A stretch of DNA of 64,000 nucleotides. Source: Polynucleobacter hirudinilacicola. Lineage in GTDB: Bacteria > Pseudomonadota > Gammaproteobacteria > Burkholderiales > Burkholderiaceae. The stretch's first letter is position 1. The number at the start of each line of letters is the position of its first letter. Under the pieces are notes generated by a model that ran no database searches, was not told the DNA's origin, and worked only from the letters and a program-made list of their open reading frames with translations. The stretch covers positions 186,001 through 250,000 of the forward strand of contig NZ_NAIA01000003.1 in NCBI RefSeq assembly GCF_002192535.1, in the 5' to 3' direction. This document shows, piece after piece, positions 96-16,202 of this stretch. The translations under genes and the position numbers were made by a program.

Positions 96-99
96 TTGC

Positions 100-140
100 T
101 GGTGGGCCCTCTAGGACTTGAGGCTGGGACCAAAGGATAG
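100..140 (-). repeat. Degenerate copy of the tRNA-Ile2 3' end (att-like remnant A)
   Basis: tggtgggccctctaggacttgaggctgggaccaaaggatag aligns with 16126-16165 of the intact tRNA, with several mismatches. Confidence 0.75.
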
Positions 141-335
141 TGAAAGCTGACCCTCTCATTGGTTTAGCAAATAAAAAATCCCTTCTTCTGGGGCGGCACT
201 AAAATCAGGCTAGTTCAGCCTCTGCAAAGTTGGTTTGGTGATAACCCTAGATTTTGGTGAAATAACCTCAAAATCATTTGACCCATTGCTAATTGCTTGG
301 CATTCTGTATTTCACAAGTCTATTGGAGTTATGCA

Positions 336-809
336 ATGAAATTCAAAAAATTAATAGCTGTTGTCGGTTTTATTTTAGCTTTGGGATTAACCGGAACTCA
401 ATCACTGGCGCTGACGCATATCGATGGCGCCGTCCCATATGAAGACATTGAAGCTACAGAAATTACAATATCACAATCGCCAAAAACCATCTTAGGACAA
501 GACTTTAAATATCCAGCAGGGCAACCTCTCATCAAATCTTTTGTGATTGATATACCAGTTGGTAAGCAAACTTCTCTACACAAACACGCGGTTCCATTAT
601 TTATTTATGTAGTCTCTGGAGAGTTAGAAGTTGATTATGGCAGCAAGGGTAAGAAAACATTTAAATCTGGCGCAGCCTATGTAGAAGCGATTGAATGGTG
701 TCATTTTGGTAAGGCTTCTGGAAAATTACCTGTAAAGATTATTAGCACTTATCTAGGTCAAGAAAAACCTGATCAATTGAAGCCCGATTCTTGCTCTAAG
801 CCTAATTAA
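336..809 (+). CDS. Exported cupin-domain protein
   Basis: ORF with N-terminal signal-like hydrophobic segment (MKFKKLIAVVGFILALGLTGTQSLA) and cupin-like motif (HKHAVPLFIYVVSGELEVDYG). Confidence 0.75.
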   Translation: MKFKKLIAVVGFILALGLTGTQSLALTHIDGAVPYEDIEATEITISQSPKTILGQDFKYPAGQPLIKSFVIDIPVGKQTSLHKHAVPLFIYVVSGELEVDYGSKGKKTFKSGAAYVEAIEWCHFGKASGKLPVKIISTYLGQEKPDQLKPDSCSKPN

Positions 810-866
810 TTTTTTAAGTCGCTTATTCTGAGGTGCCTGCTCCAGCCGTCACCTCAAGTAGCGCTC

Positions 867-949
867 AAAAGACAAAACCGCCACCATTGCTGATGAGAGT
901 TTACTTTTTTGGCGGGCCCACCAGGACTTGAAACTGGGGCCAAAGGATA
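867..949 (-). repeat. Degenerate copy of tRNA-Ile2 3' end plus its downstream terminator (att-like remnant B)
   Basis: 83-bp segment aligns with 16083-16165 with few substitutions, including the gacaaaacc..ccaccattgctgatgag hairpin. Confidence 0.8.
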
Positions 950-1092
950 AACTGCGACAACAGCCCATCTTACTGAAGGCATAAAAATTGGAAATATAAG
1001 CTACTGCCTTTAGATATTGATCACTTTACTTTAAATTACTTGATCAGACTACGCAATATTTACTTAATACTATAGAGTTTTTTCAACAGTGA

Positions 1093-2064
1093 TTAATGAA
1101 ATATTTTCTCCGAGCTTCGGTTATATCTTACAACTTCATTAGAAAACTGCTCTGCTGAGCTCCATTTGATCTCGATACCAGTGGATGCGAATGCCTTAAT
1201 AAATTTTGATTGATTCAGAACATCCTTAATCGCCAATGAAAGCGTATCGCAAACTCCCAATGGAATTTTTTGTGGTGCAAATACCCCGTAAAAAGGATTA
1301 TTTTCAAAACCTTGAATTCCAAGCTCAGAAAAGGTTGGAACATTTGGAAGCAAAGCTAATCTTTTGCTTCCCATGACTCCGATAATACGGATTTTTCTAC
1401 TGCGATGATGCTCAATGCATTCGAAAATTGATCCTATCCCTGCAGGAATGTGATTTGCTAGTATGTCGCTTAGCATCGGAGCACTTCCCTGATATGGCAC
1501 AGTCACCAAATCGAGATTTTCTTTACGATTTATACGTTTCACTAGATATTCCGGAATTGAATTTATTGCTGGGACTCCAATAGAGCGTTGGGCGCCTGTC
1601 TGGCTCAATAGCCATTGTCGATACTGCAAGTAATTAATGGGCGGGATATTTGCAGAAATAAAGAGGCAATTTACAAAATTTCCAACTCCAGCTACCGCCT
1701 GAAAATCAACCATTGGGTTGTAGCCTGGATTCTTGGTCAGTTGTGGAACTATCGAAATAGTATGGTCATGCGATAGTAGTAACACGCTCCCATCTGGCTT
1801 GGAATCCATTAAAGTCTGAGCAGCAATTTGCCCGCCTGCACCAGCTCGGTTTAATACAGTAACCGGAATCCTTAATTGTTCTCGTAGGCCATCAGCAAGA
1901 TATCGCGCCAACAAATCAGTACCGCCGCCAGGTGGAAAGCCAACCAAGATAGTGATCTTAGGTGGAAGTTGATCAGCATATAACGGGTTTGCACGAAGGG
2001 GGCTAATTAGCGGAAGGGTTGCCAAACCAAGAGTTGACAATAAAAAACGACGTGCTGAATTCAT
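1093..2064 (-). CDS. Tripartite tricarboxylate transporter (Bug-family) substrate-binding protein
   Basis: Signal-like N-terminus, ITILVGFPPGGGTDLLARYLADGL, NRAGAGGQIAAQTLMDSKPDG; Bug/TctC signature. Confidence 0.88.
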   Translation of the reverse strand: MNSARRFLLSTLGLATLPLISPLRANPLYADQLPPKITILVGFPPGGGTDLLARYLADGLREQLRIPVTVLNRAGAGGQIAAQTLMDSKPDGSVLLLSHDHTISIVPQLTKNPGYNPMVDFQAVAGVGNFVNCLFISANIPPINYLQYRQWLLSQTGAQRSIGVPAINSIPEYLVKRINRKENLDLVTVPYQGSAPMLSDILANHIPAGIGSIFECIEHHRSRKIRIIGVMGSKRLALLPNVPTFSELGIQGFENNPFYGVFAPQKIPLGVCDTLSLAIKDVLNQSKFIKAFASTGIEIKWSSAEQFSNEVVRYNRSSEKIFH

Positions 2065-2075
2065 ATCAATAAAAT

Positions 2076-2927
2076 TTAGCCAAGTTCAAAAGTTGTAATT
2101 CCATATGTATCTTCAATGCGCAAATCTCCAACACTTCCTTTATACATTCTAGCCGTCTCAAACATCGGCTGCATGCGATGCCGATGGGCAAGTGCCATCG
2201 CCTTTGGATTGCACTCCGGAACATCTAGAAAAACAGGGCAATTATTTGCTACCCTAGCACAAAGAGATGTGTAAAGCTTTTCAGCGGCTAATTCTGAGTT
2301 GGCAAAAAGTGGTCCAATTTAAAATCCAACCCTGCATGGGCGGATGACACCATAACCACATATGATGCCATCCTCAATCAGGCCAAGGGCAAAGCTATCA
2401 GGCTGGGATATCCAGTTAGATAGAAAAACTGTTCTATTCGCTGGAAAGAAGGATCTATCAAAATCTTGAATCATTGAAAACGGGATTTGATCAAGGGGTA
2501 TGATTAATCCGCCTACACTATCCGATACTAATTCAATCTTTCTTGAACGACCTGCAAATCGGATGTTACGGTGAGTAAATTGAAAGCCGCTTTTTTGGTA
2601 GTTGCTTTGTTGTGCTACAACGCCGTCTAATCCGATTGGCAATCCCTTCAAATAATTCATGCCAACTTGCCATATTTCCCAACCAAAACCCTGTCCGCGA
2701 AAATCTGGATGGACGATATAAAGACCAATGAATCCAAACTGCTCACCATATCGTATGGCCGAAATTACGGCAACCGTTTGATCACCTAGTTTAGAAATAA
2801 AAAAACCGCTGGGATCTGCCAGAAGAAATGAAGAGGCATCTGATACGCCTGGATTCCAACCCTCTTGCGCAGCCCACTCAATGGCCATTGCTACTTCAGA
2901 TTGCGACATGTTTTTGATTGAGCGCAT
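2076..2927 (-). pseudogene. GNAT-family N-acetyltransferase interrupted by one in-frame TAA
   Basis: ORF 2319-2927 has a GNAT core (FIGLYIVHPDFRGQGFGWEIW). Reading on in the same frame past TAA (2319-2321) gives IGPLFANSELAAEKLYTSLCARVANNCPVFLDVPECNPKAMALAHRHRMQPMFETARMYKGSVGDLRIEDTYGITTFELG*, a plausible GNAT C-terminal domain. Confidence 0.8.
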
Positions 2928-3334
2928 AAAATTTATTTAATATTTTTTGATAACACTTGTAAATAGTCATAAATACTTTGAGCAGCATCCTGCCGATCTG
3001 ATGGTGGTGCCGAAATTAAAAGAGGAGGCATAGTTGTATTTGGTTTTTGCTGAGGGTAAGTTAAATTATGGCACTCACTATAGCAACCGCACCTTGATGA
3101 CATGCTTTGTTAGTTCCATTGAAAAACATATTCACTTGGTTGATGGTGCGGATGGTGGATACGCCTATGCTGCCACAAAGTTAAAAGGTGCTGCTAGCTG
3201 ATTAATGCTATTGAATTCTTTATCATATTAAACGACACCAGATTACATACCCATCCAAGACCGCTATCAAATTTTTAATCGCCCCATGAAATGAAGTGCG
3301 CGATTTATCGTCACTCCGAAAGCCAAGCAAAAAA

Positions 3335-3362
3335 ATACCAACCCCAAAGGTTGGTATTTTCA
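3335..3362. terminator. Hairpin beside att-like repeat C
   Basis: ATACCAACC CCAAA GGTTGGTAT followed by TTTCATTTC. Confidence 0.6.
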
Positions 3363-3366
3363 TTTC

Positions 3367-3411
3367 TGGTGGGCCCACCAGGACTTGAACCTGGGACCAA
3401 AGGATTATGAG
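3367..3411 (-). repeat. Perfect 45-bp copy of tRNA-Ile2 3' end (att-like site C)
   Basis: tggtgggcccaccaggacttgaacctgggaccaaaggattatgag is identical to 16126-16170; identity extends 4 bp further left (3363 and 16122). Confidence 0.92.
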
Positions 3412-3524
3412 AGCAGAAGTCCAAAGAAAACCACTAGGATTTCAAGAGCTTACATCGCCTGTTTATCGGTGTGTGAGTATTTGTGTGACTAGATTGACAA
3501 GATCACAAGAGGCACTATCTGACT

Positions 3525-3583
3525 CTTTGGTTTTCAAAACCAAAGGATTTTTGGAGCAACCATCTAACACTTCGTTGTTCCAA
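3525..3583. repeat. Tandem hairpin pair, copy 1
   Basis: CTTTGGTTTTCAAAACCAAAG and TTGGAGCAAC-N13-GTTGTTCCAA; near-identical pair at 9798-9856. Confidence 0.8.
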
Positions 3584-3601
3584 GGTGGTTTTAGAGGAGC
3601 A

Positions 3602-3622
3602 AGCGTTACTTTAAGTAACGCT
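3602..3622. repeat. 21-bp palindrome, copy 1
   Basis: AGCGTTACTTTAAGTAACGCT; exact reverse complement is at 9582-9602. Confidence 0.85.
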
Positions 3623-3752
3623 TATATAGTAAGAGACTGCTTTCAACCCAAAGCAGGCTATGGGGGTACCCCCCTCTAAAAACTACTAAAAGCTTGCATA
3701 TACAGACTAAGCCACTTATTCTAATTAAAGTAATTATAAGTATTGAAAATAA

Positions 3753-4556
3753 ATGCCCAAAAGTTCAAATGCTATAAGAACGATCATTGCTGCGTTGATT
3801 TCGCTTGACGTATGTGCGCAGGCAGAAAATCAGACGTATGAACAACTAGACAGACCCGCAATTTTCGACTCAAAGCCATATGCTGAAATTGGATCTAGCT
3901 ATGAGGGACTTACCAACGGATATGCTCCATGGCAAAGCCAGTATTTAGATTTAATGCTTCCACTCAAACAGAATGGCTTGGTTTACATTCAACTGTTAAA
4001 TGCCGAGCGATTTTCACAAGTCGATCAGTCCGCCTATCTCAATTATGCTTACCCATTCACATATGGTGTTATTAATGTTGAGGGATCAATTACTCATAAC
4101 CCCCAATTCTTAGCCCAAAATTTCTACGGAGCTGGTTGGAATGGAAAACTACCTTATCAATTCAACTATCTCATCTCTGGGCGCGAGAGCAGTTATTTGG
4201 ATGGAAGAACAAGCAATCAAAACTTAGGGTTTGATAAGTATTTTGATCAATTTAGACTGGCATATGCTGCCATTTACTCAACATTAAATAGCCAAAAAAG
4301 TGGTTGGTTAAGTAAATATCAAGCTCAATGGTTTCCCAAGAATAATCACCGCATTGGCCTATCCTACTCGACTGGTCATGAGCCTACAGTAGTTAATGTA
4401 GGAAACCTTACTACTGTAGACACGCAGCAATATCAAATAGATGGTTTGTATTGGCTAACAAAGGAGGTGGGCTTAACTGTAGCAGCGTGGCACGCCAAAC
4501 AAGGTAACTACTACCAAAGAAACGGGGGGCAAATTGGACTTCGATTGGCTTTCTGA
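3753..4556 (+). CDS. YaiO-family outer-membrane beta-barrel protein
   Basis: YEQLDRPAIFDSKPYAEIGSSYEGLTNGYAPWQSQYLDL..., amphipathic strands, C-terminal GQIGLRLAF ending in aromatic residue. Confidence 0.72.
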   Translation: MPKSSNAIRTIIAALISLDVCAQAENQTYEQLDRPAIFDSKPYAEIGSSYEGLTNGYAPWQSQYLDLMLPLKQNGLVYIQLLNAERFSQVDQSAYLNYAYPFTYGVINVEGSITHNPQFLAQNFYGAGWNGKLPYQFNYLISGRESSYLDGRTSNQNLGFDKYFDQFRLAYAAIYSTLNSQKSGWLSKYQAQWFPKNNHRIGLSYSTGHEPTVVNVGNLTTVDTQQYQIDGLYWLTKEVGLTVAAWHAKQGNYYQRNGGQIGLRLAF

Positions 4557-5211
4557 CCCACTTTTACTTTATGCACTCACACTAGCCGCCTTACTATTTG
4601 GTGGAATTTTTATGCTGATACTGACCATCATCATTAAGCATGGAAGACGTATCAAAAGTCAAAAGATTCAAGACTATTTCGTGTCATTAATAAATCAGGC
4701 GAAAGAGTATCGCCTAGAAGGCAAGGGAATTAAGCATGAGCTTACATATATTAATAAACTGATTGAACTACACAAGAAAGATGTTGCCTATGGATGGGTT
4801 AGGCTATTGGAGCGGACACCAAAAAAGGATCGAGATCAGTTTATTGACATAGCAAAACAAACTAATATGCTCCATTGCATCCCCCATTGCCTGAATGATG
4901 AAGGCATCGCTGAGAAATGTATTGCCTTAGAAGCAATTGGTCTTTCTAATTTTGATGGCTATACAAATGAAGCCAAAAAATATGCAATGCAAGAAGGCAT
5001 CGCTCCGTATGCTTGCATTGCCTTATCTCGCCTTATTGGAAAAGATTCTCTCCCCCAGATTATTGAATCTTATAAAAAAGGAATTCTCTCTACAACACAA
5101 GCATTAGCAGCAATAGTAGAAATTCCACGCGACCAAATCATCAACTACATACAGGGCTCAACTCAAAAAACTTTCCCCACGCAACTTAGTCAGTATTTGG
5201 AGTTCAATTAA
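4534..5211 (+). CDS. Membrane-anchored HEAT-like repeat protein of unknown function
   Basis: N-terminal TM (LYALTLAALLFGGIFMLILTIII), then helical repeats; TTG start overlaps the yaiO-like gene and follows a GGGGGG stretch; stop abuts the next ATG. Confidence 0.6.
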   Translation: MDFDWLSDPLLLYALTLAALLFGGIFMLILTIIIKHGRRIKSQKIQDYFVSLINQAKEYRLEGKGIKHELTYINKLIELHKKDVAYGWVRLLERTPKKDRDQFIDIAKQTNMLHCIPHCLNDEGIAEKCIALEAIGLSNFDGYTNEAKKYAMQEGIAPYACIALSRLIGKDSLPQIIESYKKGILSTTQALAAIVEIPRDQIINYIQGSTQKTFPTQLSQYLEFN

Positions 5212-6594
5212 ATGAACTTGACTAATATCTCTTCCGAGATTGTGCGGTTCATGGAATATTTTTTTCATGCTCACCTCTTAATTGCATTAATCACTTACAT
5301 TGTCGTGGCAGCGTTACTCAGAAAACACCTACGCCACCTTAAATATCGATCAATTAGCCATGAAAAAGTGCCGTTTGAGAAATTCAAAGCCCCAAAAATT
5401 AGCGTCATTATTCCGGTACATAATGAATCTTTGGGAATCGTAGAAAGCGTTAATGCAGCACTCTCCACCGATTATCCTAATTACGAAATTATTGTTGTTG
5501 ATGATGGCTCAATCGACAAAACCCTGGCTCATCTTAAAGAACATTTCAATCTTGACAATCTCGCCCTAAACTCTTGCGCCACCATTAGCAATTCACAACC
5601 AGTAGCAGCCTTTCAGTCGAAAACATTTCCGAATTTAACCATTATTCAAAAAGTACATACTGGCAAAGCTGACAGCCTAAATGTTGGTATTCAGCATAGT
5701 CACGGAGAATATATTTGCTGCATTGATAGTGATTCGATTATCACGCCTGATGCCCTTAGAAAGCTGGTTATTAAATTTATCAATGAGCCTACGCTAGTTG
5801 CACTTGGAGGTGCCATCGCCCCAAGCAATGAAATCATAATCCGGAATGGGGAAATTGAAAGAAAGCGAAGCTCTCAGTCCATATTTGTAGGCGTGCAAAT
5901 CATTGAATACCTCCGCTCTTTCACTTCATGGAGAACTGGCTGGTCTTATTTGGATGGGCTATTAATTATCGGCGGCGCTTTAACAGTATTTACTAAGGAA
6001 GCTGTTATTAAAGTTGGAGGCTATAGATCAGAGGCCTATTGCGAAGATCTAGAAATTATTCTCTCGCTGCATGAATACCACCTAAAGCACAACCTGCCTT
6101 ATAAGATCTGGACCATTCCAGAAGTCATCTGCTGGACTAAGGTCCCTAGAACTAAAGTAGACTTAAAAAAGCAGCGTATTCGTTGGATGTGGGGCGCCTT
6201 ACAAAGCTTAAGCTGGCATAAACAATTGATGTTTAACAAGAAGAGTGCTCTTATTGGCTGGTTCTCATTTCCGCACATCGTTTTCATTGAGGCTTTTGCC
6301 CCCATCATTGAGCTCTTAGGAATAATCTCGCTTTGGGTATGTATAGCATTAGGATTACTCTCCTATCCTTCGTTCTTGATATATGGTCTTTTGATCTACG
6401 CCATAACAGGGTTTTATTCTTGGTATGCAATTGCTACAAACGATAACTACATTAGCAGCTTTAATTCACTCAAACAAATATTGCGCTTGGGTGCAATTGG
6501 ATTAATTGAACCTATCGGCTACAGACAAAGAGATGCTTACTGGAGGATGATTGGGTGGTGGCGATGGTTACGAGGTAAATCTATAGAATGGTAG
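5212..6594 (+). CDS. Processive family-2 glycosyltransferase (exopolysaccharide-synthase-like, YaiP/PgaC-like)
   Basis: KISVIIPVHNES, VVDDGSIDKT, CIDSDSIITPDAL (DxD), YCEDLE, KKQRIRWMWG (QxxRW) and TM helices. Confidence 0.88.
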   Translation: MNLTNISSEIVRFMEYFFHAHLLIALITYIVVAALLRKHLRHLKYRSISHEKVPFEKFKAPKISVIIPVHNESLGIVESVNAALSTDYPNYEIIVVDDGSIDKTLAHLKEHFNLDNLALNSCATISNSQPVAAFQSKTFPNLTIIQKVHTGKADSLNVGIQHSHGEYICCIDSDSIITPDALRKLVIKFINEPTLVALGGAIAPSNEIIIRNGEIERKRSSQSIFVGVQIIEYLRSFTSWRTGWSYLDGLLIIGGALTVFTKEAVIKVGGYRSEAYCEDLEIILSLHEYHLKHNLPYKIWTIPEVICWTKVPRTKVDLKKQRIRWMWGALQSLSWHKQLMFNKKSALIGWFSFPHIVFIEAFAPIIELLGIISLWVCIALGLLSYPSFLIYGLLIYAITGFYSWYAIATNDNYISSFNSLKQILRLGAIGLIEPIGYRQRDAYWRMIGWWRWLRGKSIEW

Positions 6595-6742
6595 CCCCTT
6601 GGGCGTGAAATCAAATCCAATCTGGCCTGCCAGCCATACTAAATGATCGAAGTTATGTGACCCCTTTCGCTTTAATTACATCGTATGTGTAGCTGACACC
6701 CAATAAAAAAGGGCATAAGATGAAACAGTGGAAAGGAAAAAT

Positions 6743-6997
6743 ATGAGTCTATTAAGAACATCTCTCATTGGCGGGATAAGCCTTTCAAGCCTGCATTTTT
6801 TCTGGGTAATTCTCTTGGCATCTGGGTTTGCGCAATCAGCCTTGGATTTCATATTCAAACTTCATATGCTGAGCTCGCCATTTCAAGTACAGGCATTTGA
6901 TCTTGGGCTAGCTATGGGATTAATTGGGATCACATTTTTAATTGGATGTTTTTACGGCGCCCTCTTTTTCCTCCTTAAAAATAAGTTATCTTCGTAA
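6743..6997 (+). CDS. Small membrane protein of unknown function
   Basis: 84-aa ORF with two or three TM segments, ending 3 bp before the P-type ATPase ORF. Confidence 0.45.
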   Translation: MSLLRTSLIGGISLSSLHFFWVILLASGFAQSALDFIFKLHMLSSPFQVQAFDLGLAMGLIGITFLIGCFYGALFFLLKNKLSS

Positions 6998-7000
6998 TTT

Positions 7001-9479
7001 ATGGAGGGTCTTACAAAATCGGAAGCAATTCAGCTCCAAGCAAAGTATGGGTTTAATGAGCTAGAAGTTGCAGATCAAAAAACTCTCTTTAAACTGCTTC
7101 TGCGAATATTGGCTGAGCCCACATTCGCCCTTCTCTTGCTGGCTGGATCGATTTACCTAGTTATTGGAAGAATTGATGACGCATTGATATTAATTGGATT
7201 CATTTGTATTTCAGTTGGAATTACGCTATTCCAGGAGCGAAAAAGTGAAAAAGCAATTAATGCACTCAAGGAGCTCTCAAGCCCCAGAGCGATTGTCATT
7301 AGAGATGGCATTACCCAAAGAATAGCCGGTAAAGACATTGTCGTTGGGGACATACTCATACTTGCAGAAGGGGACAGAATTCCCGCAGATGCCCTATTAC
7401 TTGAATCACATGACCTACTCGTTGACGAATCATTGCTCACCGGTGAATCTGAACCCACTAAAAAAGATAGTGCTAGTCAAGTTCATTCGGGTTGCATGGT
7501 AATTCGGGGTAGCGGCATAGCCAGAGTTACCGCTATCGGCATGCAAACTGAGTTAGGCAAGATCGGAAGTAGCCTAAAGCAAATCATTAGTCTTAATAGC
7601 CCTCTTCAGGAAGATATTGGGGAATTGATTAAAAGGGTTACGATTTTTGGGGTCTCCCTCTCAATTATCGTTCTAGCAATCTACGGTTTAATGCACGATA
7701 ACTGGCTTCAAGGTGCACTGACCGCTATTAGCCTAACCATGGCGTTACTGCCAGAAGAATTCACAGTAATTCTGACGGTATTTATGGCGCTCGGCGTTTG
7801 GAGAATAGCTCGCCAAAAAGTACTTACTAGGTATGCACCCGTCATTGAAACACTGGGCAGCATTACAGCTTTATGCGTTGATAAGACGGGTACTCTCACC
7901 CTGAATAGGATGTCTTTAGAGGTTCTTGCAACTCCCCAGAATATCCTGATGCTTAGCTCAAAAGATGATGAACTAAATCCATCGCAAAAAGAGCTTCTAG
8001 GTTATTGCGTACTTGCAAGCGAGGTAAAGCCCTTTGACCCGATGGAACAAGCTTTTTATGAAAAGCGCCATCTCGCTCCCGAATACATTAATCAGACTTC
8101 CGAATTTGAACTGGTACACGAGTATGGCCTGAGCCCCGAGCTCCCTGCGATGACACATCTTTGGAAGGCGCCAGGCTCTGATCGGTGCCTTGTGGCTATC
8201 AAAGGTGCGCCCGAGGCAGTTCTTAAGCGCTGTAATTTGACGCAAACACAGATCGCAGTAATTGAAAAACAAATTGAGGATCTTGCATCACAAGGATTGC
8301 GTTTACTCGGAGTTGCAAAATCTCAATATACGAAGCAAAGCTCAAATTGGCCAGCAAACTTGAGCTCATTTGAGTTTACTTGGCTCGGTCTTGTGGGGCT
8401 CAAAGACCCCATTAGAGAAGAAGTGCCCGCATCCATTCAGAAATGTCAGAGAGCTGGCATTCGCGTCATCATGATTACTGGAGACCATGCCATTACTGCG
8501 CAAGCGATTGCAAAGCAAGCGGGTATTGATAGTGCCAGCGTTCTATCTGGTAGCGATATCAATGCACTTAGCGATGTTGAACTTCGCGAAGCAGTAAAGA
8601 AAACGTCAATTTATGTACGGATTAAGCCTACTGAGAAATTAAGACTTGTAAAAGCGTTGCAAGCGAACAATGAAGTTGTCGCTATGACAGGTGACGGGGT
8701 TAACGATGCGCCCGCCCTAAAAGCAGCTCATGTAGGCATTGCGATGGGGCAACGAGGCACCGATGTTGCTAGAGAAGCCGCATCCTTAGTGCTGCTAAAT
8801 GATGATTTTTCATCCATCGTCCACACTATCCAGCAGGGCAGACAAATATATGACAATTTACATAAAGCCATCATTTATGTCGTTGCCGTCCACATCCCAA
8901 TGGCTGGAGCTGTTTTTATTCCCATTCTCTTTGGGGTGCAGCCGATCCTTGACCCAATACATATCGTCTTCCTGCAAATGATTATTGACCCGGCATGTGC
9001 AATTATTTTTGAGATGGAAGCGCCTGAAAGCGATGTAATGCTAAAGCCACCTAGAAGTATTAATCAAAAACTCTTTAGCTTGGATAGCATCTCTATGGCT
9101 CTATTACAAGGGGCGGGATTGACCGCTATTGTTGTTGGCCTATATTTCTGGCCTAAATATGAACTATTCCCATGCAATGGCTACAACACTATCATTTGGC
9201 AGTCTAGTACTTGGAAACATCTCATTAATAATTGTCAGCAGATCTAAAAATGATCACCTCTTTAGAATCCTGCAAAAAACCAATCCATCTCAGAAATGGA
9301 TTCTCGGTATTGGGGTCATATCCTTTGGATTTTTAATTACGATTCCATTTCTCCGAGATCGGTTTCAATTCACTGTGCCCACACTAGAAGGTGCATTAGC
9401 GATTCTTGCCTCTGGGTTAATCGGAATCACGTGGTACGAGCTTGTTAAGCTAGGCTACAGAAGAAAATGGGGCCAATAG
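7001..9479 (+). pseudogene. Cation-translocating P-type ATPase split by a frameshift near 9150-9190
   Basis: ORF 7001-9247 has DKTGTLT, TGES, MTGDGVNDAPAL and LLPEEF. ORF 9129-9479 carries the rest (YSHAMATTLSFGSLVLGNISLIIVSRSKND...) in the +1 frame. Confidence 0.82.
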
Positions 9480-9542
9480 TAAATGAATGCTATTGGCCGA
9501 AAGCAGCCCTTCAACGCCCTAACCTATACGCATCACCATTGA

Positions 9543-9572
9543 AAGTGTGCAGTAATCGCTTGCACACTTTTT
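9543..9572 (+). terminator. Rho-independent terminator downstream of P-type ATPase
   Basis: AAGTGTGCA gtaatcgct TGCACACTT TTT. Confidence 0.7.
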
Positions 9573-9581
9573 AGCACCCCC

Positions 9582-9602
9582 AGCGTTACTTAAAGTAACG
9601 CT
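9582..9602. repeat. 21-bp palindrome, copy 2
   Basis: AGCGTTACTTAAAGTAACGCT, reverse complement of 3602-3622. Confidence 0.85.
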
Positions 9603-9676
9603 CAAATGACCAAACCTCACCTTTAGTCTCAAAAGCTAGCTTTTTGTAACTTTTAGGCTAGCTTTAGGTTCTCTGG

Positions 9677-9860
9677 TTATGAGAGCAGACACCCAAGATA
9701 GACCCATGTAAACAGGGGGTCTGCGGATGGTCAGTGTCGGTGTGTAAGCAAATGTGTAAGCAAATTCGTAGATTTACTAGAAGAGCTCTCTCGGTCTTTG
9801 GTTTTCGAAACCAAAGGAATTTTGGAGCAACCATCTAGCACTTCGTTGCTCCAAATCGTT
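9677..9860. repeat. Diverged copy of the segment beside att-like site C (unit E)
   Basis: ggttatgagagcaga ... tcggtgtgtaagcaaatgtgtaag ... ctttggttttcgaaaccaaagg-attttggagcaaccatctagcacttcgttgctccaa parallels 3402-3585. Confidence 0.75.
9798..9856. repeat. Tandem hairpin pair, copy 2
   Basis: CTTTGGTTTTCGAAACCAAAG and TTGGAGCAAC-N13-GTTGCTCCAA. Confidence 0.8.
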
Positions 9861-9944
9861 TTGGGTGGGATTAACGGGCGGTGCTTAAAGTAATGCTTGA
9901 TTAACCAATGACCGCTATCGACCCAACTAAGCCACCCACCTACC

Positions 9945-9976
9945 AAACAAAAAACCTGCCGAAGTAGGTCTTTTAT
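9945..9976 (-). terminator. Putative minus-strand terminator at the end of the catabolic operon module
   Basis: On the minus strand, GACCTACTTCGGCAGGTTTTTTGTTT. Confidence 0.5.
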
Positions 9977-9995
9977 GTAATCACATCAAAGCTAG

Positions 9996-10057
9996 TTACA
10001 AACTAATCGTATAAGTAGCCATCACCGTAGTAGTGGCATCGGCTTTTTCGAAAGCAA
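9996..10057 (-). pseudogene. Residual C-terminal coding fragment of an unidentified protein
   Basis: Minus-strand reading gives ...FEKADATTTVMATYTISL*, resembling the C-terminus of a fimbrial-subunit-like protein; no intact gene. Confidence 0.3.
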
Positions 10058-11215
10058 TTAAACGTAGCAAGGTCCATCAATCAATGGATGATCTTTTACA
10101 AAATCTAAGTTAATTTTCAGGCCAATACCTATACCTTCATACGGCTTTACAAAACCTTCTGAATCGAGCTCATAAGCTCCTTTGTCCATCATTTCATCCC
10201 TAAATGGATTGAGTAATGTCACATCTCCTTCAAAGTATCCGGGGTTATCAATCGCAGACAGAAAATGAATTGTTGTTCCCATATTGATTGCAGTTGCAGA
10301 AGTATGAGGATTAATCGTTAACTTATTGGCGCTCGCCATAGCTGCAATCCTCATTGACTCAGTCACGCCACCAGTCTTCGACAGATCAGGCTGTATAAAC
10401 TGTACATCCCCATCATCTAATAGGGTTGCAAAATCATAACGGGTATAGTGATTCTCTCCAGCAGCAAATGGGACTCGCCCTAAGCTACGGGCCATGCGAT
10501 ATGCTTTTCGATCCTGTGGTGGAAATGGCTCCTCCAACCAACTCACTCCCGCCTCATCAAAAGCAGGCATTACCTTACGCACATCTGCTAGGGTGTAATT
10601 TGTATTGGCATCAACTAATATGTCAATTTCATTGCCTACCGCCTTACGAACTGCATGTACTCTGACAATATCTTTTTCAGCGGTATCGCCCACACGTAAC
10701 TTTAATGCTCGATAACCAGTTGCCACATGCTCTTGCGCCTCCTTTGCCAAGGAGGCGGGCTCTTGCCATCCAAGGGCAATGCCACCTGCATAGGCTTTAA
10801 TCTTTTTAGAAGCCCCGCCCAGCATCCTATACAAAGGTTGCTGCATAATCTGAGCACGAATATCCCACAGCGCAATATCAATACCACTTAAAGCTAATAC
10901 TGCAGCTGCGCCCGTTCCATGGCTGGAGATTTGCATTTTATAAACGCGAGTCCAGATCCCATTAATATCCATTGCGTCACAGTTGAGCACCAGCTCGCGC
11001 ATAGTCGTATCAATTAATTTTGCGATTGCACCTGGCGCCCTGCCATGGTGTGCCTCCCCCCAACCAACATGACCATCTTCCGTTTCGATACGCACCAGAA
11101 CTGAATCACGTTTGACACATTTGCCTATACCTAATCGAACCGATTTATTTTCAGGAACTGGAAATGAAATTGGTACAGCCTCTAATTTCACAATACGCAT
11201 TGGATTACTTGTCAT
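10058..11215 (-). CDS. Mandelate racemase / muconate lactonizing enzyme family (enolase superfamily), paralog 1
   Basis: YRALKLRVG, DILVDANTNYT, SWLEEPFPPQD, AGENHYTRYDF, QPDLSKTGG, NPHTSAT; start chosen at MTSNPMRIVK. Confidence 0.9.
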   Translation of the reverse strand: MTSNPMRIVKLEAVPISFPVPENKSVRLGIGKCVKRDSVLVRIETEDGHVGWGEAHHGRAPGAIAKLIDTTMRELVLNCDAMDINGIWTRVYKMQISSHGTGAAAVLALSGIDIALWDIRAQIMQQPLYRMLGGASKKIKAYAGGIALGWQEPASLAKEAQEHVATGYRALKLRVGDTAEKDIVRVHAVRKAVGNEIDILVDANTNYTLADVRKVMPAFDEAGVSWLEEPFPPQDRKAYRMARSLGRVPFAAGENHYTRYDFATLLDDGDVQFIQPDLSKTGGVTESMRIAAMASANKLTINPHTSATAINMGTTIHFLSAIDNPGYFEGDVTLLNPFRDEMMDKGAYELDSEGFVKPYEGIGIGLKINLDFVKDHPLIDGPCYV

Positions 11216-11222
11216 GATTTTT

Positions 11223-12182
11223 TCAATTAAAGAAGACTTCTGGGTTAACAATATTGTCAGGCCGAATACCCTTAAGGATGGCAAGAATTGTCTTGACTGA
11301 TCCCTCGCTCATACCGCGCATACTACTAGAAGTAATCGATGCTATATGGGGAGTAAGTAATAAGTTTGGGCAATCAAAGATAGCCTCTTCTCCGGTCAGA
11401 GGTTGCTGATCATGCACGTCCATCGCTGCACCAGCAATTTTTCCTGCTTTAAGTGCACTAATGATTGCCTGCGTATCTACCACCGGTCCACGTGCGATAT
11501 TAATCAGGATGGCATTTGACTTCATCATTGAAATCGAGAGCTGATCTACCATCCCGCGCGTTTCTTCATTCAATGGGCAGCAAATTACTATCACATCAGA
11601 TTGCGAGAATAATTCTGCTTTTGTAACTGAACGAACTCCACTAGGCAATGTTTCGGGACGCCGAGTAAGCGCAATGGTTTTCATATTTAGGCCCATTGCT
11701 GCATTGGCTAATTTGCCCCCTATTGATCCAAACCCAATAATGCCCAAAGTAGTAGTTGCAATCTCGGTGGAGGAGTCTGCTTGTGGCCGAGCTTTTGTCC
11801 ATCCCTGAATTCGCAACTGTGAATTAATCAGATCTAAGTTACGACGGAAATAAAAAATGGCAGCTATACAGTACTCAACTACAGCATTGGTATTTGAACC
11901 TGGTAAGTTTGCAACTGGAATTCTTTTTTTGGTTGCTGCATCTACCGGAATGAAATCTAATCCCACGCCATGGCGAACTACTGCCTTTAATTGTGTAGCT
12001 CCATCAAATATATCTTGAGGCAGCTGACATCGAACTATTAACCCTTCACAGTCCGAAATAAGACTTTTTAAAGTCTCAGACTTTATATCTGGCGCCACCA
12101 CCACATCGCACTCCTCCATGAGAGCTTGATTGCATTCTGGATGTATAGGGTTAGTCAAAAGAACCTTAAATTTTTTACTCAA
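11223..12182 (-). CDS. D-2-hydroxyacid dehydrogenase (phosphoglycerate-dehydrogenase-like)
   Basis: GIIGFGSIGGKLA NAD motif, NIARGPVVDTQAI, AMDVHDQQPL, LTPHIAS. Confidence 0.9.
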   Translation of the reverse strand: MSKKFKVLLTNPIHPECNQALMEECDVVVAPDIKSETLKSLISDCEGLIVRCQLPQDIFDGATQLKAVVRHGVGLDFIPVDAATKKRIPVANLPGSNTNAVVEYCIAAIFYFRRNLDLINSQLRIQGWTKARPQADSSTEIATTTLGIIGFGSIGGKLANAAMGLNMKTIALTRRPETLPSGVRSVTKAELFSQSDVIVICCPLNEETRGMVDQLSISMMKSNAILINIARGPVVDTQAIISALKAGKIAGAAMDVHDQQPLTGEEAIFDCPNLLLTPHIASITSSSMRGMSEGSVKTILAILKGIRPDNIVNPEVFFN

Positions 12183-13083
12183 GAAATGGCGCTCCCTTTT
12201 TTATTGGATTATTAAGTACTCCCAAACCCTCAAGCTCTACTCTTACAGTTTGCCCTGGCTGGAGCCATGCAGTAGGCTGATGCATCATTGCCAAACCTGC
12301 TGGGGTACCAGTTGCAATAATATCGCCAGGTTCAAGTGGCATTTGCTTGGAGATATAAGAAATTAATTCTGCAACTTTAAAAAGCATTGTGCCGGTTGTG
12401 CCATTCTGTAACACCCTACCATCCACATCTAATTTAATTTGAATCGCGTAAGGATTTACTACCTCATCAGCAGTCACTAGAAAAGGCCCCAAAGGGGAGG
12501 ATGCAGGCATATTCTTTCCTCTGACAAAGTTTCCACTATCCTGCTTAATCATGCCGCTACCGCTGATATCGTTATGAACTGTATAACCAGCTACATGCTC
12601 CATTGCATCATCTGGCTCGATAAACAAAGCGCGTTTGCCAATAATGACAGCCAACTCAGCTTCATAACCTACGTTACCCACATCTGGGGGAATAAGAATG
12701 GGGTCATTAGGCCCTATGACCGTATTGCCAGATCGAATAAAAATAACTGGCTCCGTTGGATAAGCCATTGATCGCTCATCCAATGCATCAGTAAAGTTGT
12801 ATGCAGCCCCAATAACTTTCCCCGGCATAGGAATTGGAGAGCATATTGCAAGAGAGTTGAGACTAACTACCGCATTCTGATCGTAGGCCCTACTCTCAAT
12901 TTTTTCCTTAATTTTTTTAGTCATTAATGGCAAACCCATCCTTACCATCTCTATTAAATTTGGGTATTGACCAGCCATGATGTCACTGCAACTTTCATGA
13001 GAAAGATCCAGCACAGACAAAGAGTCGTCCAGTAGAACGCCCACTCTTTGCTCTGATCCTTTTGTAAAAGTTAAGTAACGCAT
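12175..13083 (-). CDS. Fumarylacetoacetate hydrolase (FAH) family protein
   Basis: VGYEAELAVIIGKRA, GYTVHNDIS, LEPGDIIATGTPAG. Confidence 0.9.
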   Translation of the reverse strand: MRYLTFTKGSEQRVGVLLDDSLSVLDLSHESCSDIMAGQYPNLIEMVRMGLPLMTKKIKEKIESRAYDQNAVVSLNSLAICSPIPMPGKVIGAAYNFTDALDERSMAYPTEPVIFIRSGNTVIGPNDPILIPPDVGNVGYEAELAVIIGKRALFIEPDDAMEHVAGYTVHNDISGSGMIKQDSGNFVRGKNMPASSPLGPFLVTADEVVNPYAIQIKLDVDGRVLQNGTTGTMLFKVAELISYISKQMPLEPGDIIATGTPAGLAMMHQPTAWLQPGQTVRVELEGLGVLNNPIKKGAPFLE

Positions 13084-13092
13084 AAATACAGT

Positions 13093-14235
13093 CTATACAA
13101 CTCGATATTGGTCGAGAATGTGACGATTAATTTCAATTCCAAGACCCGGACCGTTTGGCACGCTGACTTTACCATTGCGTTGTTCAATAGGCTCAACTGA
13201 TAACAAATCACGGAATGGATTCTCGCATTGCTCAAACTCAAATAAAGGCGGGTTACCTTTAAAGCTAGGCGGCTGATCGGGCAGCGCTGCCAAGAAATGC
13301 AAGGTTGCCGCAACTCCGATCACTGATCCCCACGCATGCGGAACACACTCTACCCCATGTGCACTAGCGAGAGTTGCAATCTTGCGACATTCACTGATAC
13401 CACCTGCAGCACAAACATCCGGCTGAACAATATCCATCGCTTTGCGCACCACAATATCTCTAAATCCCCAGCGGGTAAATTCATTTTCTCCGCCCGCAAC
13501 AGCCATATCTAGGGCACGAGTCACCTCAACATAGCCATCCAAATCCTCTGGAGAGATAGGCTCTTCAAACCATTCAATATCTAACTTCTCAAGCTCTCGA
13601 CCAATCTTGATTGCCTGAGGCACGGTAAAGCAATGATTGGCGTCCACCATCAATCGCATCTCATCGCCCACTGCTTTTCGAACCGCCTCTACACGCCTAA
13701 TATCCAACTTCAGGTCGCCCAATCCAATCTTCATTTTGATGGCAGTAAAGCCATTCTGCTTAAATTCAATCGCCTCCTCTACTGCTTCTTCGATCAAGCG
13801 ATCCATATCAATAAAATACAAGCCGGTTGCATAAGCCGTTACTTCATCACGATAGGAGCCGCCTATTAACTTATGAATTGGTTTTCCACAGGACTTGCCA
13901 ATAATGTCCCACAAGGCAATATCAATTCCGCTAATTGCAGAAATTGCCATACCGGTAGTACCGTAATCTTTGATCCGGTTATATAAATCCTCCCAGATCA
14001 CCTCTACATCGAACGGATCCCTACCGATAATTCGAGGTCCAAATTGAGTATCGATAAAAGCTTTTGCAACAGCCGATGGTCCGTAACATTCACCCCAACC
14101 CACTATGCCGTCATTTGTCTCAATCTCCAAAATACAAGAGCCACGAGTTTTATAAATCCAACCCCTTGAGGAGGTAAAAGGCTTTTGTACGGGAGCGGCA
14201 ACAATATGACATGTTACTTTTTTAATTTGACTCAT
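13093..14235 (-). CDS. Mandelate racemase / muconate lactonizing enzyme family (enolase superfamily), paralog 2
   Basis: TAIKMKIG (KxK), MLMVDANHCFT-like strand, EWFEEPI, GGENEFTRWGF, QPDVCAAGG, VPHAWGS. Confidence 0.9.
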   Translation of the reverse strand: MSQIKKVTCHIVAAPVQKPFTSSRGWIYKTRGSCILEIETNDGIVGWGECYGPSAVAKAFIDTQFGPRIIGRDPFDVEVIWEDLYNRIKDYGTTGMAISAISGIDIALWDIIGKSCGKPIHKLIGGSYRDEVTAYATGLYFIDMDRLIEEAVEEAIEFKQNGFTAIKMKIGLGDLKLDIRRVEAVRKAVGDEMRLMVDANHCFTVPQAIKIGRELEKLDIEWFEEPISPEDLDGYVEVTRALDMAVAGGENEFTRWGFRDIVVRKAMDIVQPDVCAAGGISECRKIATLASAHGVECVPHAWGSVIGVAATLHFLAALPDQPPSFKGNPPLFEFEQCENPFRDLLSVEPIEQRNGKVSVPNGPGLGIEINRHILDQYRVV

Positions 14236-14258
14236 TGCTCTTCTTTCAATCTCAATAT

Positions 14259-15263
14259 TTATTTTTTCTCAGAAAATACTTTTTTTCCAACTTCAGATAA
14301 GGTGTTTGTAACTGCAATAATTTCAGCGCCCAATGCTTTTCCAGTAAGACTATCAACTCTTGCCCCGCCATCTTCAGATGCAGCTTTAAAGCGCGGATCC
14401 TGAATCGCTTTATTAAAAATGGCGATTAATTTTTCTTGAATTTCTGGTGGGGTCTTTGCGGGGGCAACAAGATATGCCATTTGAACCAATGGTCCATATG
14501 GGAAAACGTTATATCCTTTTTCCTTAAATGTAGGAATATTAGGCATTGATTTAATACGCTCATTCGCGAAAACACCCAACGGTATCACCATATTGGAATC
14601 AATCTGCGCCTTACTCTCAGATGGCTTTAGTACCGCAGCATCAATTTGTTTACCAGCCAGATCGATAATCACTTTAGCCCCACCAGTGTATGGCACGGTT
14701 ACAACTGAAGAATTGACTACATTACCCGTCATCACTGCAAAAATATGATTTAAGTTATTACTACCTGGAGTGCCAATTGATATTTTTCCAGGATTCTTTT
14801 TAACCATTGCCTCAAAACCATCCACATCTTTTACTGGTCCGCCCTTGGGAACAAGAAGCAATAATTGATCTGTTGTGACTCGTGCTATCGGGGCAAATTG
14901 ATCATTCTTGAGTGGAGTTAAGCCCTGCGCAATCATTGCCATAGTAGAGCTGGTACCCATTCCAATGGTGTAACCATCTGGCTCTGCGTTAGCCACTTTT
15001 GTCATACCAATCGTTCCGGTTGCCCCAGCAACGTTATCTACCACCACAGTAACCCCTTCGTCAGCCAGAATCTTAGAAATTAATCTTGCAGAAATATCAT
15101 TTGACCCTCCGACATTCCAGGGCACCACTAACTTAATCTCCCTGGTAGGAAAATCAGCAGCAATGGCAGATCCAAAAGCCATAAAAACTCCAAAGGCAGA
15201 AGCCGCAATTGAATTAACAACCGTTTTAAAAGTATTCATATTCACTCCATTAGCTAAAAACAT
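14259..15263 (-). CDS. Tripartite tricarboxylate transporter (Bug-family) substrate-binding protein
   Basis: Signal peptide; IKLVVPWNVGGSNDISARLI, VVDNVAGATGTIGMTKVANAEPDGYT. Confidence 0.9.
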   Translation of the reverse strand: MFLANGVNMNTFKTVVNSIAASAFGVFMAFGSAIAADFPTREIKLVVPWNVGGSNDISARLISKILADEGVTVVVDNVAGATGTIGMTKVANAEPDGYTIGMGTSSTMAMIAQGLTPLKNDQFAPIARVTTDQLLLLVPKGGPVKDVDGFEAMVKKNPGKISIGTPGSNNLNHIFAVMTGNVVNSSVVTVPYTGGAKVIIDLAGKQIDAAVLKPSESKAQIDSNMVIPLGVFANERIKSMPNIPTFKEKGYNVFPYGPLVQMAYLVAPAKTPPEIQEKLIAIFNKAIQDPRFKAASEDGGARVDSLTGKALGAEIIAVTNTLSEVGKKVFSEKK

Positions 15264-15330
15264 ATCAATGTTATAACAAATAACATTAATCTAGATAAAT
15301 AAATCACCAACCCTTATGGAAACAACGGAT

Positions 15331-16044
15331 TTAATCTAACAAATTACAGATATCAAGTCGAGCGCTATCAATATCAGCACGAATAGCTTGGGCAACCCCA
15401 ACGCCATCACCCTTCTTAAGAGCATTGAGGGCTGCTAAATGATGTTTATGCCTCTTCTGTCCCGGGTTATATGCTGGTAGCGCCAGATTTAATGTGGGCC
15501 CACAGCGAAGCCAGGCCCCCTCAATAGCCTGCAAAAGAATAGCTTGATTGGCAAGCTTGTAGATCCCAAAATGAAACTGGTAGTGGGCATCTAAATAAGA
15601 GGCTAGGTTACCGGTTTCCGCCAAATCCTTCATCCGATTCAACATTTTTGAAATTTCAACTATTTCTGCTCTGCTTGCATTTTTAGCAGCAGCCTCAGCA
15701 GCCAATGGTTCAAGACTGCTGCGTATCGACATCAATTGATCAAACTCATTGGCGTTCAATAAAGGCACTGAAGCGCCGCCGCCTTGCCCGACACCACCCC
15801 TCTCGAGTACATTTTCAGCGGCCAAGCGATTAATAGCATCACGAACAGGCGTAAGACTAATGCCGAGATCCTGCGCAACTTTCCTCAAAATAATCCGCTC
15901 ACCAGGCACAAACTTACCCGCTAATAATGCACTTTTCAAAGAAAAGTAGGCCTTATCCCAAAGGGTGTCCTTATTAATCAACTTAAGACCGCTCTTCGAA
16001 ACACTTGGCATTAGGAATTTATCAAAAAATAGAATTAGCTTCAA
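15331..16044 (-). CDS. GntR-family (FadR-like FCD) transcriptional regulator
   Basis: GERIILRKVAQDLGISLTPVRDAINRLAAENVLE wHTH, FCD-like C-terminal domain. Confidence 0.9.
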   Translation of the reverse strand: MKLILFFDKFLMPSVSKSGLKLINKDTLWDKAYFSLKSALLAGKFVPGERIILRKVAQDLGISLTPVRDAINRLAAENVLERGGVGQGGGASVPLLNANEFDQLMSIRSSLEPLAAEAAAKNASRAEIVEISKMLNRMKDLAETGNLASYLDAHYQFHFGIYKLANQAILLQAIEGAWLRCGPTLNLALPAYNPGQKRHKHHLAALNALKKGDGVGVAQAIRADIDSARLDICNLLD

Positions 16045-16082
16045 TATAAATCAAAATCTAAACACACCTTCAAGCAATCTTG

Positions 16083-16125
16083 AAAAGACAAAACCCCCAC
16101 CATTGCTGATGAGGGTTTGCTTTTC
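16083..16125 (-). terminator. Terminator downstream of tRNA-Ile2
   Basis: On the minus strand, AAACCCTCATCAGCAATGGTGGGGGTTTTGTCTTTT. Confidence 0.65.
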
Positions 16126-16202
16126 TGGTGGGCCCACCAGGACTTGAACCTGGGACCAAAGGATTATGAGTCCTCTGCTCTAACCAACTGAGCTATAGGC
16201 CC
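16126..16202 (-). tRNA. tRNA-Ile2 (CAU anticodon, ileX-like)
   Basis: GGGCCTATAGCTCAGTTGGTTAGAGCAGAGGACTCATAATCCTTTGGTCCCAGGTTCAAGTCCTGGTGGGCCCACCA folds as a cloverleaf with CAU and encoded CCA; Ile2 rather than elongator Met is from resemblance to E. coli ileX. Confidence 0.93.

Follow-up and report, generated by a model that had tools for sequence, protein, structure and literature searches.

A tRNA-Ile2 island in Polynucleobacter hirudinilacicola as a probable site-specific accretion of integrase-less cargo elements, likely mobilised in trans

How does a 16-kb stretch of DNA beside rpoD come to hold several copies of one tRNA 3' end, with separate cargo between them and no integrase? The question is raised by Polynucleobacter hirudinilacicola, at the left of the 64,000-nucleotide stretch of contig NZ_NAIA01000003.1 (positions 186,001 to 250,000) that was analysed here as the window, where the initial annotation read a tandem array of tRNA-Ile2 3'-end repeats as the traces of successive insertions. 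Using a comparison of the window with related genomes, we conclude that it probably represents a site-specific accretion of integrase-less cargo elements, likely mobilised in trans, and that the earlier accretion model is essentially correct.

The only tRNA that ARAGORN finds in the window is tRNA-Ile2(CAT), which adjoins rpoD and is the only gene of its kind in the genome (Table 1). Its 3' half recurs perfectly in repeat R3, where positions 3366-3411 equal 16125-16170 over all 46 bases, one more than the 45-nucleotide duplicate first described at 3367-3411. A whole-genome search for this 46-base repeat, with up to 3 mismatches, returns only R3 and the tRNA itself, and the reversed control pattern has no match genome-wide. 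The two degenerate copies annotated at 910-949 and 100-140 hold up with slightly different borders as R2 and R1, and three further decayed copies lie outside the window on its left side (C3:184577, 175105 and 173134). In local alignment the copies score 92, 63, 60, 50, 40 and 26, whereas shuffled sequence reaches maxima of 18-21. All copies point the same way, with a hairpin or terminator to the left of each, as had been noted for the four in the window: a hairpin at about 59-95 for R1, a tRNA-type terminator resembling 16087-16119 for R2, and for R3 a different terminator (ATACCAACC...GGTTGGTAT). Identity falls outward from the tRNA (100, 91, 88 and about 82%), which fits the newest insertion lying nearest the tRNA and the oldest being the most diverged. 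The array extends left to about C3:173 kb; because sequence common to several relatives reaches up to about C3:184.0 kb, the clear stack measures about 18 kb, and the two outermost repeats lie inside a region of alternating shared and variable stretches. The absence of an integrase between the repeats was also read correctly, in that the tRNA-Ile2 island of this genome contains no tyrosine recombinase.

The repeats are real, yet they are not the only borders, and the newest 12.8 kb (3411-16126), previously taken as one module, consists of two elements: element A (3412-9676, 6,265 bp) and element B (9684-16163, 6,480 bp). Both begin with the same kind of conserved left end, placed directly after the 7-bp core TTATGAG, which is the anticodon loop of tRNA-Ile2. 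The boundary between them (9540-9684) carries a core without any tRNA sequence. Neither element encodes an integrase. Element A has att-type ends on both sides, the left end and a right end that we call RE2, and contains no integrase or transfer genes; the att features of element B are its left end and the tRNA side only. A palindrome, AAGCGTTACTTNAAGTAACGCTT, stands at 3605-3627, at 9583-9602 and at many island loci, both at element ends and near tRNA terminators. Minus-strand matches to the left end had suggested inverted left ends, and these were rejected, being mostly the GCGTTACTTAAAGTAACGC palindrome.

The same ends define a family across the genus. In 16 elements from 11 genomes the left ends align for about 200 bp, and the cargo behind them differs. 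An exact-pattern scan for the left end plus core in the GTDB collection (one genome per species) yields 77 stretches representing 76 distinct sites, mostly labelled Polynucleobacter or Burkholderiaceae/betaproteobacterial bins, with a few other labels. The sequence to the left of the core is a tRNA-Ile2 3' half at 40 of these sites, RE2 at 13, the REscar described below at 12 and something else at 11. In the 24 genomes searched whole, all left-end matches (31/31) fall inside the tRNA-Ile2 island. The island keeps its place in the genome from species to species, its variable cassettes parted by tRNA-end repeats, and the tagged cores have one orientation throughout. The borders are TTATGAG cores and not integron attC sites, and the island recombinase of relatives scores 50 bits against an integron-integrase cut-off of 265 bits.

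That such elements move is seen in comparisons between species. An integrase-less element of 7,878 bp that carries RND efflux genes is common to genomes G010 and G082 at 99.82% identity (14 differences), in hosts whose rpoD genes are 82% identical; the match spans core to core, and the adjoining sequence is unrelated save for shared element ends. Element A itself recurs in G028 at 97% identity, preceded there by RE2-TTATGAG and not by tRNA-TTATGAG, with the break exactly at the core. Cargo B matches 13 of 185 relatives and is found near full length, as a single 6-kb block at differing sites, in at least seven other genomes; in G144 it is flanked by tRNA 3'-half repeats, and elsewhere it adjoins what appear, judged by eye, to be decayed tRNA or left-end remnants. 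The cross-relative comparison proposed with the initial annotation gives cargo that switches exactly at the core, and both a module order fixed in all relatives and simple tRNA duplication are excluded.

The relatives also show a second way of treating the target gene. On the rpoD side, many of them carry an orphan tRNA 5' half, then a stretch of about 160-190 bp with ACACACC repeats (the REscar), then a complete tRNA-Ile2. Their tRNA-carrying elements divide the host tRNA in the anticodon loop at the core and supply a whole replacement, and junctions of the types REscar-core-left end and REscar-core-5' half have only 7 bp shared between element and target. Tyrosine recombinases commonly recreate the tRNA 3' end as a direct repeat; in relatives, the family often does not rebuild it by homology and brings a complete replacement gene. 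The tRNA of the window is unbroken and lacks an adjoining REscar. Two genomes have, besides the intact copy at rpoD, a complete tRNA-Ile2 with REscar at a distant locus, next to a decayed 5' half (G058:C2:465632-465929; G099:C1:1301202-1301499).

Two element forms can thereby be told apart in relatives: REscar-ended elements with a complete tRNA-Ile2, and RE2-ended elements, like A, with neither tRNA nor recombinase. A recombinase is present in 6 of 9 REscar-ended elements and in 0 of 11 RE2-ended ones (15 genomes, Fisher p 0.002). Junctions with the tRNA 5' half comprise intact tRNA, REscar, intron and a few other ends, and RE2 occurs at none of the approximately 150 listed from 101 genomes. 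Because an RE2 element supplies no tRNA of its own, a direct hit on the sole tRNA-Ile2 gene should be lethal, and such elements would survive only on the left of a functional tRNA.

The island recombinases of relatives are tyrosine recombinases of 190-212 amino acids, hardly more than a catalytic domain, and probably act on this core. They are accompanied by three conserved proteins without an assigned function, and the genes beside them (264-280, 204-221, 286-319 and 448 amino acids) had no confident match in any library searched. Two recombinase-bearing elements, L057 (G014) and L059 (G016), include a type I restriction-modification system and a Zorya system among their genes, both serving defence, and the Rfam RNA Polynucleobacter-1 (RF01718) lies within one of them (L057:8820-8960). 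The genome-wide search for an integrase suggested earlier finds a single recombinase of the short subfamily in P. hirudinilacicola, at C3:850235 (L109), about 650 kb from the island, where a predicted DNA methyltransferase gene adjoins it. With tRNA-Arg(tct)/tRNA-Pro(tgg) genes only about 6 kb away, we considered it as a helper but do not claim it as one.

From these observations we propose the following course of events. A tyrosine recombinase would exchange strands at the TTATGAG core in the anticodon loop of the sole tRNA-Ile2(CAT), and each insertion would shift the current tRNA 3' half and its terminator leftward as a scar while providing a new 3' half on the rpoD side. Elements A (envelope and P-type ATPase genes) and B (catabolic genes) would be the two newest arrivals, their ends still sharp, and were probably inserted by a recombinase acting in trans. 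Together they could perhaps still be excised between the cores at 3405 and 16164, with the tRNA restored whole. For the clean right end of B, two origins are conceivable, either loss of a scar through recombination between the two 5' halves or the two cores, or classical integration of an attP bearing a tRNA 3' half; scar loss is what our model would suggest. The initial annotation had offered integrase-less accretion, mobilisation in trans and relics as options, and integrase-less cargo mobilised in trans fits best.

A more elaborate arrangement, which we put forward tentatively, is a helper-satellite system, in which recombinase-bearing, tRNA-carrying elements split the host gene and so make harmless cores for travellers that lack both recombinase and tRNA. 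The replacement tRNA-Ile2 often contains a group I intron in its anticodon loop (Rfam RF00028), as in G010, G012, G016, G026, G031, G076, G077, G082, G091 and others, and by interrupting the loop this intron might keep the replacement gene from attack or the scar from deletion. Only in G023 was an intron-bearing copy seen directly at rpoD with no scar. Complete protection by the intron is weakened as an idea by L139 and L180, in which an element has entered an intron-bearing tRNA-Ile2 at the junction of 5' exon and intron. Our literature search found no paper joining Polynucleobacter and group I introns.

Several observations weigh against accretion by mobilisation in trans. We infer both the trans action and the recombinase responsible from sequence comparison, and the same is true of excision. 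Element B has no recognisable right arm beside the tRNA, and element A carries a frameshift in its P-type ATPase, which is hence probably inactive, so that both elements may be fixed relics. The distant C3:850235 recombinase is only 51-67% identical to the island recombinases and may be unable to recognise the TTATGAG core. The recombinases of tRNA-Ile2 islands do not form one clade, and their subfamily is also found near other tRNA genes, which loosens the link between recombinase type and site. Finally, the relatives compared are kin, and their counts are not independent.

The first of the rival explanations builds on some of these points and takes the array for a set of classical relics, that is, tRNA-3'-end islands or prophages with a homologous attP that lost their integrases later, never moved in trans and are now inert. 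An intact, scarless tRNA as after classical integration, an island without an integrase, the frameshifted ATPase and the modules R1-R2 and R2-R3 without recognisable ends would all be expected of it. What makes it unlikely, in our judgement, is that elements with two intact ends and no integrase are seen repeatedly across many species, one of them having moved between species at 99.8% identity, and that the absence of a recombinase from 11 of 11 RE2-ended elements looks like a standing type and not like repeated random loss. Among the genes annotated in the elements, no phage genes, structural ones included, could be recognised, and IMG/VR contains no match to the left-end pattern, which leaves a viral carrier without support.

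Capture by homologous recombination, for instance after natural transformation, would dispense with a site-specific recombinase today and use the conserved 150-200 bp ends and the tRNA repeats, which are conserved enough for pairing; several cargo blocks that match only partly between islands would suit it. Crossovers would, however, be expected inside the ends, whereas the best pairs break at the 7-bp core with ends 97-99.8% identical up to it, and the uniform orientation of the cores also argues against it, so that we hold this explanation to be improbable, more so than the relics. Duplication and decay of the tRNA gene alone, without mobile elements, would account for repeats that are tRNA fragments with terminators; it would leave unaccounted for the conserved element end on the non-tRNA side of the core and the cargo that switches at the core between species, and we consider it virtually excluded. 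We therefore retain accretion of integrase-less elements, likely mobilised in trans, as the best explanation.

Table 1. Positions of island features in the window and, in the last three rows, examples from relatives
Position	Strand	Feature	Details
96-138	-	R1, decayed tRNA-Ile2 3' half	88%, E 2e-9
354-809	+	Cupin-domain protein	PF07883; sole gene of R1-R2 module
904-948	-	R2, decayed tRNA-Ile2 3' half	91%, E 4e-12
1093-2064	-	TctC-type solute-binding protein	PF03401; R2-R3 module
2319-2927	-	GNAT acetyltransferase	Acetyltransf_18, profile positions 2-49 of 124 only; apparently C-terminally cut short; R2-R3 module
3366-3411	-	R3, perfect tRNA-Ile2 3' half	Last 7 bases (3405-3411) are the core TTATGAG
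3412-3630	+	Left end, element A	AGCAGA, paired GTGTG motifs (putative recombinase arm sites), three hairpins
3753-4556	+	YaiO-type outer-membrane barrel	Cargo A1
4534-5211	+	Unknown protein	Cargo A1
5212-6594	+	Family-2 glycosyltransferase	Cargo A1
7001-9479	+	P-type cation ATPase	Cargo A2; two overlapping frames, 7001-9247 and 9129-9479
9540-9676	+	Right end RE2, element A	GTGTGCA inverted repeat, GCGTTACTTAAAGTAACGC hairpin, ...TAGGTTCTCTGG
9677-9683	+	Core TTATGAG at A/B junction	Without tRNA sequence
9684-9880	+	Left end, element B
10058-16044	-	Cargo B	Block of about 6 kb
16087-16119	-	tRNA-Ile2 terminator
16126-16202	-	tRNA-Ile2(CAT)	ARAGORN (labelled tRNA-Met, cat); single copy, insertion target; core 16164-16170
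L053:15594-15810		Intron-bearing tRNA-Ile2
L083:18100-18308		Intron-bearing tRNA-Ile2
L091:18049-18308		Intron-bearing tRNA-Ile2

Cargo A1 (3753-6594) is a separate block in G002 and G125, and cargo A2 occurs apart in G099, G117, G077 and G084. Cargo B encodes two enolase-superfamily (MR/MLE) enzymes, a 2-hydroxyacid dehydrogenase, a fumarylacetoacetate-hydrolase family protein, a TctC-type protein and a GntR/FCD regulator, with the dehydrogenase and the second TctC protein named from their sequence, without a library match.

A literature search found no earlier account of this island, though an earlier description may exist, and its elements fit no single known family, combining the layout of additive islands, the tRNA replacement (in relatives) of tRNA-dependent lysogeny and the integrase-less state of cis-mobilisable elements (CIMEs). 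In additive flexible genomic islands, described in Alteromonas (PMC4119200) and as fGI-2 in Methylophilaceae (PMC10872708), a conserved tRNA is likewise targeted and variable cassettes are separated by 3'-end direct repeats; here, by contrast, the cassettes have exact ends, a 7-bp core and tRNA-free junctions, and two forms can be defined. The tRNA-dependent lysogeny of actinobacteriophages (PMC10865867), which includes tRNA-Ile2-CAT and uses cores of 9-10 bp, shares with our relatives a short tRNA core, a host tRNA that is split and not rebuilt, and a complete cognate tRNA carried by the element. The present elements are not phages, however, the tRNA that they carry frequently contains a group I intron and tRNA-less companions stack alongside, while those of the window lack an integrase and leave an intact, scarless tRNA.

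CIMEs, reviewed in PMC5704250 together with the tandem accretion of integrative and conjugative (ICEs) and integrative and mobilisable elements (IMEs), are similarly att-bounded, integrase-less, arranged in tandem at a tRNA and potentially moved by a relative's integrase. They are presented there as decay products, whereas here the RE2 form turns up repeatedly with a conserved right end of its own, and an integrase-less element has recently moved between species. For hitcher elements, PMC11389934 raises as an open question how large integrase-less islands move; with base-exact ends and core, integrase-less members that cross species and candidate helper recombinases, mobilisation in trans becomes directly testable here. 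The rule that tRNA-less elements are never seen beside the tRNA 5' half predicts which insertions would be lethal, and the frequent group I intron in the carried tRNA allows a bacterial test of the proposal by Randau and Soll, made for archaeal tRNA genes and taken here as cited in PMC4390854, that disrupted tRNA genes resist integration; if the helper-satellite arrangement were true, it would be a bacterial case of tRNA introns guarding against integration. Lastly, Tycheposons, which are known from Prochlorococcus and reported in Methylophilaceae (PMC10872708), also place cargo at a tRNA in streamlined aquatic bacteria, with a tyrosine recombinase that our family has in relatives only; compared on these features alone, the integrase-less cargo form and the replacement of the tRNA are what we see here.

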